From positions 1-40,374 of the forward strand of contig JAKAUI010000005.1 in NCBI GenBank assembly GCA_021827745.1: DNA of 40,374 nt. Reading direction: 5' to 3'. The position numbers were made by a program, and so were the translations under genes. The notes under the pieces are model-generated. The model was not told where the DNA came from. It saw nothing but the letters and a program-made list of their open reading frames with translations, and searched no databases. Origin of the DNA: Bacillota bacterium (GTDB taxonomy: Bacteria; Bacillota; Sulfobacillia; JAJZYS01; JAJZLH01). Numbering within the stretch: position 1 is the stretch's first letter; every line of letters starts with the position of its first letter. Positions 33,884 through 34,808 of the stretch are shown piece by piece.

Positions 33884-33904
33884 AGCGGTCAGGAGGTTTT
33901 GCCC

Positions 33905-34486
33905 GTGAGTGAAGGGATCCACTGGCTTAGCACATTGGAGGAGGGCCACAAGGCGGCCCGGGAGAGTGCGAAGCTCCTCTTCGTCGACATGGTGAAGACC
34001 CCCGGCTGAGGCGGCTGCGCCAAGATGGATGCGGCTACGTATCCCATAAAAGAGGTCCAGGACTCGATTGCCCAGCACGCCGTCGCCGTGCGGATCAACA
34101 CCGCCGATGCCGACGACGCGGCCAAGGCCGCCATGCGCCAGCTGCGCCTAGTGTGGACGCCCCTTCTCGTCTGGTTCGACCACCACGGCGTCGAGCTCAG
34201 GCGGTCTGTTGGCTATGTGGAGCCGGCCAGCTTTCAGGCCGAGATGGCGCTGGCCGACGGCCAGGCCAAGCTGTTCCATGCCGAGTACCAGGCGGCCGAA
34301 ACCGCATTCTTGAGTGTTGTCGAGCGGTGGCCAAAACTGGCCCAGGCGGCCGAAGCGCAGTTTTGGTCCGGCGTGGCGGCGCTTCGGGCCGGAGACCGCG
34401 AGCGCTTTTTGGCCAACTGGCGGGTGCTGAAGGAGCACCACGGCGACACCATCTGGTGGGAGAAGGCGAGCTTCGCCGCCGTCTGA
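33905..34486 (+). CDS. Selenoprotein: thioredoxin-fold protein with UGGC motif and TPR-like C-terminus
   Basis: Read through one TGA (34007-34009), the frame gives 193 residues from GTG 33905, which has AGGAGG 8 bases upstream. Residues 1-105 form a thioredoxin fold: LLFVDMVKTPG-U35-GGC38-AKMDAATYP has the redox motif UxxC at the start of helix 1, and VWTPLL near 84-88 holds the cis-Pro. Residues 110-193 look like tetratricopeptide helices (EYQAAETAFLSVVERWPK, AQFWSGVAALRAGDRERFLANW). I recall Cys homologues with KTPGCGGC. Without Sec decoding only an N-terminal stub, or a product from the internal ATG 34025 lacking the motif, would be made. It is separate from argS, with its own promoter and terminator. 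Confidence 0.88.
34013..34036 (+). promoter_or_regulatory. Candidate bacterial SECIS hairpin
   Basis: GGCTGCG (34013-34019) can pair with TGCGGCT (34030-34036) over 7 bp (two G-U), with the loop CCAAGATGGA. It starts 4 bases after the TGA, the region where bacterial SECIS elements lie within the coding sequence. Folding was done by eye only. Confidence 0.4.
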
Positions 34487-34610: not shown

Positions 34611-34659
34611 TACGACGCCTCATGCGGCTTGTGCCCATGTTGTGAGAGGAGGAACGCCG

Positions 34660-34749
34660 GTGCGAATCATCATGGACGTCAGTGCCGATGGCACAGGGCG
34701 TCTTCGCGCCACTGGCGCCATCTCACAGTCGAATAGGCGGCAAACCTAA
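34660..34749 (+). CDS. Short leader peptide upstream of the exporter operon
   Basis: GTG 34660 opens a 29-residue frame (VRIIMDVSADGTGRL... SNRRQT) ending in TAA. AGGAGG at 34647-34652, 7 bases before, is one of the strongest ribosome sites in the window, and a near-consensus promoter precedes it. No protein family is recognised. A long terminator hairpin follows within 25 bases, and then the ABC-2 exporter. This order suggests a regulatory leader whose translation affects termination. A stand-alone small protein is the alternative. Confidence 0.5.
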   Translation: MRIIMDVSADGTGRLRATGAISQSNRRQT

Positions 34750-34755
34750 CCTAGC

Positions 34756-34808
34756 GACACGCTGAAGAGAGCGGCCGGGGGCGGTGCCCCCGGCCGCTTT
34801 GTCGTGTC
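34756..34808 (+). terminator. Terminator/attenuator hairpin before the ABC-2 exporter
   Basis: GCGGCCGGGGGC (34771-34782) and GCCCCCGGCCGC (34786-34797) give a perfect 12-bp stem with a GGT loop, followed by TTTGT. A further arm pair GACACG (34756-34761) and CGTGTC (34803-34808) can extend it. The T-tract is short, so termination may be partial. Confidence 0.7.

Follow-up and report, generated by a model that had tools for sequence, protein, structure and literature searches.

The window, by which we mean the whole stretch of 40,374 nucleotides that was analysed, contains a gene that is almost certainly a genuine selenoprotein gene, with the in-frame UGA at 34007 decoded as selenocysteine (Sec). 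This assignment draws on comparative sequence evidence. The encoded protein is very probably a cytosolic thiol-disulphide oxidoreductase with a TPR domain for docking. A preliminary description of this DNA had proposed both a selenoprotein and the fusion of a thioredoxin fold to TPR-like helices. The former is supported by a UGA at the same codon in relatives, Cys homologues, the Sec machinery, a SECIS hairpin and purifying selection, and the latter by Pfam, AlphaFold2 and Foldseek.

Reading frame and selenocysteine machinery

A Shine-Dalgarno-like AGGAGG was read in the sequence at 33891-33896, 8 nt 5' of a GTG codon at 33905. The frame that opens at this GTG runs to TGA 34484-34486, with TGA 34007-34009 as its sole interruption. 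With readthrough, the full product has 193 residues and carries UGGC at residues 35-38, with U as residue 35 in the context MVKTPG-U-GGCAKMD (KTPGUGGCAKMD, residues 31-42). The preliminary description had reported a ribosome site with GTG 33905, a frame broken only by this TGA and running to 34484, and a UGA at the redox position of KTPG-(TGA)-GGCAKMD; all three readings were confirmed on the sequence. It had also expected gene callers to split or truncate the gene and, when readthrough was disallowed, the ORF finder indeed yielded just the 153-aa frame ATG 34025..34486, in which the first strand of the fold is missing along with the attacking residue and the resolving Cys. Routine annotation would place the gene start just past the catalytic residues. 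The features of the locus are as follows:

33891..33896, forward strand: Shine-Dalgarno-like AGGAGG (sequence)
33905..34486, forward strand: predicted selenoprotein gene, 193 aa, with thioredoxin fold at about residues 3-110 and TPR-like part at about 104-190
34007..34009, forward strand: in-frame UGA codon, decoded as selenocysteine at residue 35 (in UGGC); the position is occupied by Cys in eight homologues (alignment)
34016..34018, forward strand: putative resolving Cys38 of UxxC; unchanged in 17 homologues (alignment)
34025..34486, forward strand: truncated 153-aa ORF expected from a standard gene caller (ORF finder)
34026..34045, forward strand: candidate bacterial SECIS hairpin region, stem GGAUGCG/CGUAUCC, loop within 34033-34038
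34160..34162, forward strand: Pro86 of WTP; unchanged in 17 homologues (alignment)
34214..34483, forward strand: C-terminal TPR-like helical domain (Pfam, AlphaFold2 model, Foldseek)

The selenoprotein gene is preceded by ArgS and followed by an ABC transporter. Its neighbours in other families include a succinate dehydrogenase/HTH region, sugar kinases, an SDR gene and a guanylate kinase-like gene, and no operon partner was conserved beyond the genus when neighbourhoods were compared across the homologue genomes. The interval between the gene and the ABC transporter (34640-34803) contains GAGAGGAGG followed by GTG, from which a very short ORF might begin, and after that GTG a terminator-like arrangement of a GC-rich palindrome, GCGGCCGGGGGCGGTGCCCCCGGCCGC, and a short T stretch.

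The machinery for Sec insertion, which the preliminary description had named as something to look for, was present in the window's genome (1.62 Mb, 97% complete). A tRNA-Sec with anticodon UCA (ARAGORN) was located at contig C49:68877-68968 (72.7 bits), SelB at C49:41381-43210 (358.8 bits) and SelA at C2:40009-41304 (479 bits). The tRNA-Sec model gave weaker matches in every genome including controls, and for the window's genome only the strong, ARAGORN-confirmed match was counted. Adjoining selA is selD, which has its own UGA, in SGUGCK (G000:C2:41354-42277; L107:3355-4278), and a formate dehydrogenase alpha subunit with UGA in NRTUHAP was found at G000:C2:12455-14329 (L112). Genes for selC, selB, selA and selD scored above curated cut-offs in all nine genomes with a UGA-type family member.

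Readthrough of the UGA, itself strongly indicated, might also insert an ordinary amino acid through a reassigned code or a suppressor. This explanation is scarcely credible and was rejected on the UGA codons that terminate the window gene itself and several of its neighbours. Moreover, homologues show only Cys as the alternative at residue 35, and both a UCA-anticodon tRNA-Sec and a SECIS hairpin are present.

Homologues, selection and the SECIS hairpin

A homologue search of 151 genomes (the window's own and 150 relatives) returned 17 full-length members, the window's included, together with one remnant; the same 17 were recovered when 154 genomes of the class were searched with a profile. 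TGA occurs precisely at residue 35 in nine of them, namely the window's gene and eight relatives that are 83 to 27% identical to the window protein. The other eight have a Cys codon at this position, in the motif CSGC. The nine UGA genomes belong to one Bacillota class and are spread over five genera in five families (f1, f2, f48, f25 and f10). Twelve positions are unchanged in all 17 members: C/U35, G37, C38, T45, W84, P86, G103, E150, G156, W172, L175 and W184. No family members outside the window's own genus were found in a phylum sample of 398 genomes, and none were found in viral and plasmid collections.

The preliminary description had suggested that alignment to Cys homologues would be informative, and those recovered (eight members, Cys at residue 35) do align across both sides of the UGA; the relatives with TGA carry it at the identical codon, not as random lesions elsewhere. 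Because the same codon is TGA in nine Sec-type homologues down to 27% identity and Cys elsewhere, the in-frame TGA is not a chance event. Within the genus, pN/pS was 0.19-0.27 for the codons preceding the UGA and 0.20-0.32 for those following it; values of 0.38-0.71 were obtained for the upstream part in genus g76, where the comparisons are short and cover just 15-18 synonymous sites. Sequence comparison thus indicates that both flanks of the codon are under purifying selection.

These data bear directly on two simpler explanations of the interrupted frame. One holds that the gene is a Cys-type gene inactivated by a chance nonsense mutation; an in-frame stop does exist, and genome G107 contains a remnant of the family that really has decayed. 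This pseudogene explanation was rejected, its probability being close to nil, as it is contradicted by the homologue alignment and by pN/pS: nine genomes share the codon, selection is purifying on both sides, and the SECIS hairpin and full Sec machinery are in place. According to the other, translation starts at ATG 34025 and gives a 153-aa protein without redox residues, the upstream part remaining untranslated. The ATG and its open frame are present, yet the 34 upstream codons show the substitution pattern of translated sequence, with pN/pS near 0.2 within the genus, and they align in the Cys homologues, which have no stop there. A start at 34025 would also deprive the fold, predicted at pLDDT 94.6, of its first strand and its two redox residues. 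The downstream start, very improbable in our estimation, was rejected on the upstream coding signal and the Cys homologue alignment. Translation from GTG 33905 through the UGA is the reading retained below.

A hairpin was found downstream of the UGA in all nine UGA genes, with GATGGAT[GA]C-(6 nt)-GTATCC at alignment columns 18-38, counting the T of TGA as column 1. It has 6-7 pairs, and its apical loop, 4-6 nt long, carries G within the first two positions. The distance from the UGA to the six-base loop is 23 nt, and predicted energies range from -8.2 to -10.4 kcal/mol. A bacterial SECIS model has been published with four limits (PMC13188914), and the hairpin falls within all four in 9/9 UGA genes.

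Constraint on synonymous sites was compared between lineages at positions with the same amino acid. In codons +4..+11, the UGA forms were identical at 127 of 146 comparisons vs 68.7 expected, the top of 175 windows, with GAT, ACG and TAT unchanged. The corresponding count for the Cys forms was 24/98 vs 25.9 expected. These counts are descriptive and are not P-values, since the comparisons are phylogenetically dependent; a single genus supplies most of the Cys rows. At the sequence level, nucleotide constraint in the hairpin was observed only in the genes that carry the UGA. No two-sided covariation was detected in the SECIS pairs; five of the seven pairs never vary, so covariation cannot decide on the element. 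Single-sequence folding of 54 nt gave unremarkable Z-scores (-0.25 to -2.15), and the SECIS claim therefore rests on position, fit to the model and synonymous constraint.

The history of residue 35 can be read in more than one way. A tree built without the U/C column requires two Sec/Cys changes, of which the starred branches alone force one. One Sec member, L009 (genome G128, motif PGUSGC), falls inside a well-supported group of Cys rows, although its exact place is weakly supported; its SECIS hairpin is near-identical to those of distant UGA forms, despite its grouping with the Cys forms L010-L018. Sec may have been the ancestral state and then been lost, or it may have been regained.

Most Cys-type members sit in genomes that retain Sec machinery. 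The Cys-type genome G113 (L011) keeps selA and a UGA-containing selD, and gave no convincing selC and no SelB match over the cut-off; it may have lost Sec decoding, or the genes may be missing from the assembly. A genus g76 relative, G107, appears to have lost the selenoprotein gene recently: only a decayed C-terminal remnant lacking the UGA part is left (L105, G107:C14:76855-77175), in a genome that retains selC, selB, selA and selD.

Predicted fold and comparison with known proteins

Two thioredoxin-related Pfam families scored over their gathering thresholds, PF13098 at 39.9 bits and PF13899 at 30.1 bits (cut-off 27 for each); TPR_16 was below its cut-off in the window protein. AlphaFold2, run on the family alignment, predicted a thioredoxin fold followed by helices (107-124, 128-141, 146-161, 165-179 and 183-188) with pLDDT 94.6 and pTM 0.89. 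The best Foldseek match for the N-terminal part was DsbD-gamma (E 5e-8). VIA-align gave Z of about 16-17 for DsbD-gamma and the Thermus thioredoxin 2LST (16.9 for the latter). The (C/U)xxC pair lies at the start of helix 1 (36-45 in the model), and C/U35, C38 and P86 are the same in all 17 members. Pro86, in the WTP motif, we take to be the cis-proline expected of a thioredoxin fold. No hydrophobic N-terminal segment was found, which points to a cytosolic location.

The C-terminal part, about 90 residues, was predicted at pLDDT 93.7 when modelled alone. Its first match was the TPR of YbgF (2XEV), with TM 0.85 over 82 columns and rmsd 1.2; the best Foldseek E-value for this part alone was 0.014, with probability 1.00. 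The model has the geometry of a TPR domain, with two or more antiparallel helix pairs.

DsbD-gamma is the best solved relative both by sequence and by Foldseek, and has its redox CxxC at the same place. It belongs to a membrane protein and is periplasmic, whereas the window protein has neither membrane part nor signal, carries Sec for the first Cys and has a TPR domain added after the fold. A 2026 inventory of prokaryotic selenoproteins comprises 119 families (PMC13188914), among which no thioredoxin-TPR fusion is listed and no entry mentions TPR. The nearest entry, a thiol:disulfide interchange protein, shares PF13098 and UxxC with the window protein; compared by description only, it names PF13098 and no TPR (PMC13188914).

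Weak profile similarity was also seen to the thioredoxin-like VPGUxxT and Trx7/PDZ selenoproteins (NF041382, NF041383 and NF041199), which were far under their curated cut-offs (e.g. 19 bits vs 350) and have another motif and partner domain; no fitting NCBIfam model scored above cut-off. DUF255/YyaL-like proteins (Thioredox_DsbH) contain a related thioredoxin subfamily (PF03190 21.8 bits, below cut-off) and are much longer, with a different C-terminal part. Profile A1 gave weak matches to proteins of ~600-700 aa in the class, probably DUF255/YyaL-like proteins, with no internal stop among the matches listed. No description of UGGC, thioredoxin-TPR or Sulfobacillus selenoproteins, and no selenoproteome study of this Bacillota class, was found in the literature searched, which lay mostly outside subscription journals. 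A thioredoxin-TPR selenoprotein family may possibly have been annotated elsewhere unnoticed, NCBI protein records lying outside the scope of the search.

By analogy, the closest match in architecture is CnoX/YbbN, which has the same order of an N-terminal thioredoxin fold and a C-terminal TPR. E. coli CnoX has SxxC, and Caulobacter CnoX a working CxxC-type site combined with holdase activity in a reductase (PMC6282202). A Sec-dependent chaperedoxin, in which the TPR would hold unfolding proteins and UxxC would keep their thiols reduced, is a conceivable though rather unlikely special case of the oxidoreductase proposed here. In its favour are the thioredoxin fold and TPR helices in one chain, no sign of export, and a Foldseek match along the full length to E. 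coli YbbN/CnoX 3qou (194 columns, E 2.8e-6). That whole-chain match nevertheless has 10% identity and rmsd 11 and reflects agreement in domain order only. YbbN was not matched by sequence in the PDB search and was absent among the VIA-align rows listed, a result still compatible with kinship. CnoX differs further in its thioredoxin subfamily, the window's domain scoring as PF13098/PF13899 and lying nearest to DsbD-gamma, and Sec is absent from it. Its TPR part, at 20 kDa (PMC10490939), is about twice the size of the roughly 90 residues found here, and no chaperone genes were seen beside the selenoprotein gene. The window protein is accordingly not called a CnoX.

Proposed mechanism and meaning

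For the oxidoreductase reading, the following sequence of events is proposed. The SECIS hairpin 23 nt downstream would recruit SelB with Sec-tRNA(UCA), so that UGA 34007 is read as Sec35. Within a cytosolic thioredoxin fold resembling DsbD-gamma, Sec35 would pair with Cys38 as the UxxC redox site. When this site is reduced, the Sec35 selenolate would attack a disulphide, or another oxidised thiol, of a client, with Cys38 acting as the resolving residue. Thioredoxin-fold selenoproteins are the basis for the attacking role of Sec35, the resolving role of Cys38 and the cis-proline assignment of Pro86. The Se-S bond would presumably be re-reduced by the host thioredoxin reductase system, trxB having been found in the window's genome, and the C-terminal TPR-like helices may serve as the docking site for the client or for a partner protein. 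The reductive direction of the site is assumed from the cytosolic location and trxB.

A thioredoxin-like UxxC selenoprotein with a TPR domain would add to the inventory of 119 families an architecture that is missing from it. If the chaperedoxin reading were true, a Bacillota lineage would have kept a Trx-TPR protein able to hold damaged proteins and to reduce their oxidised thiols by means of selenocysteine. The family also offers matched natural Sec and Cys variants of one enzyme, which would permit a direct test of the benefit of selenium in an active site.
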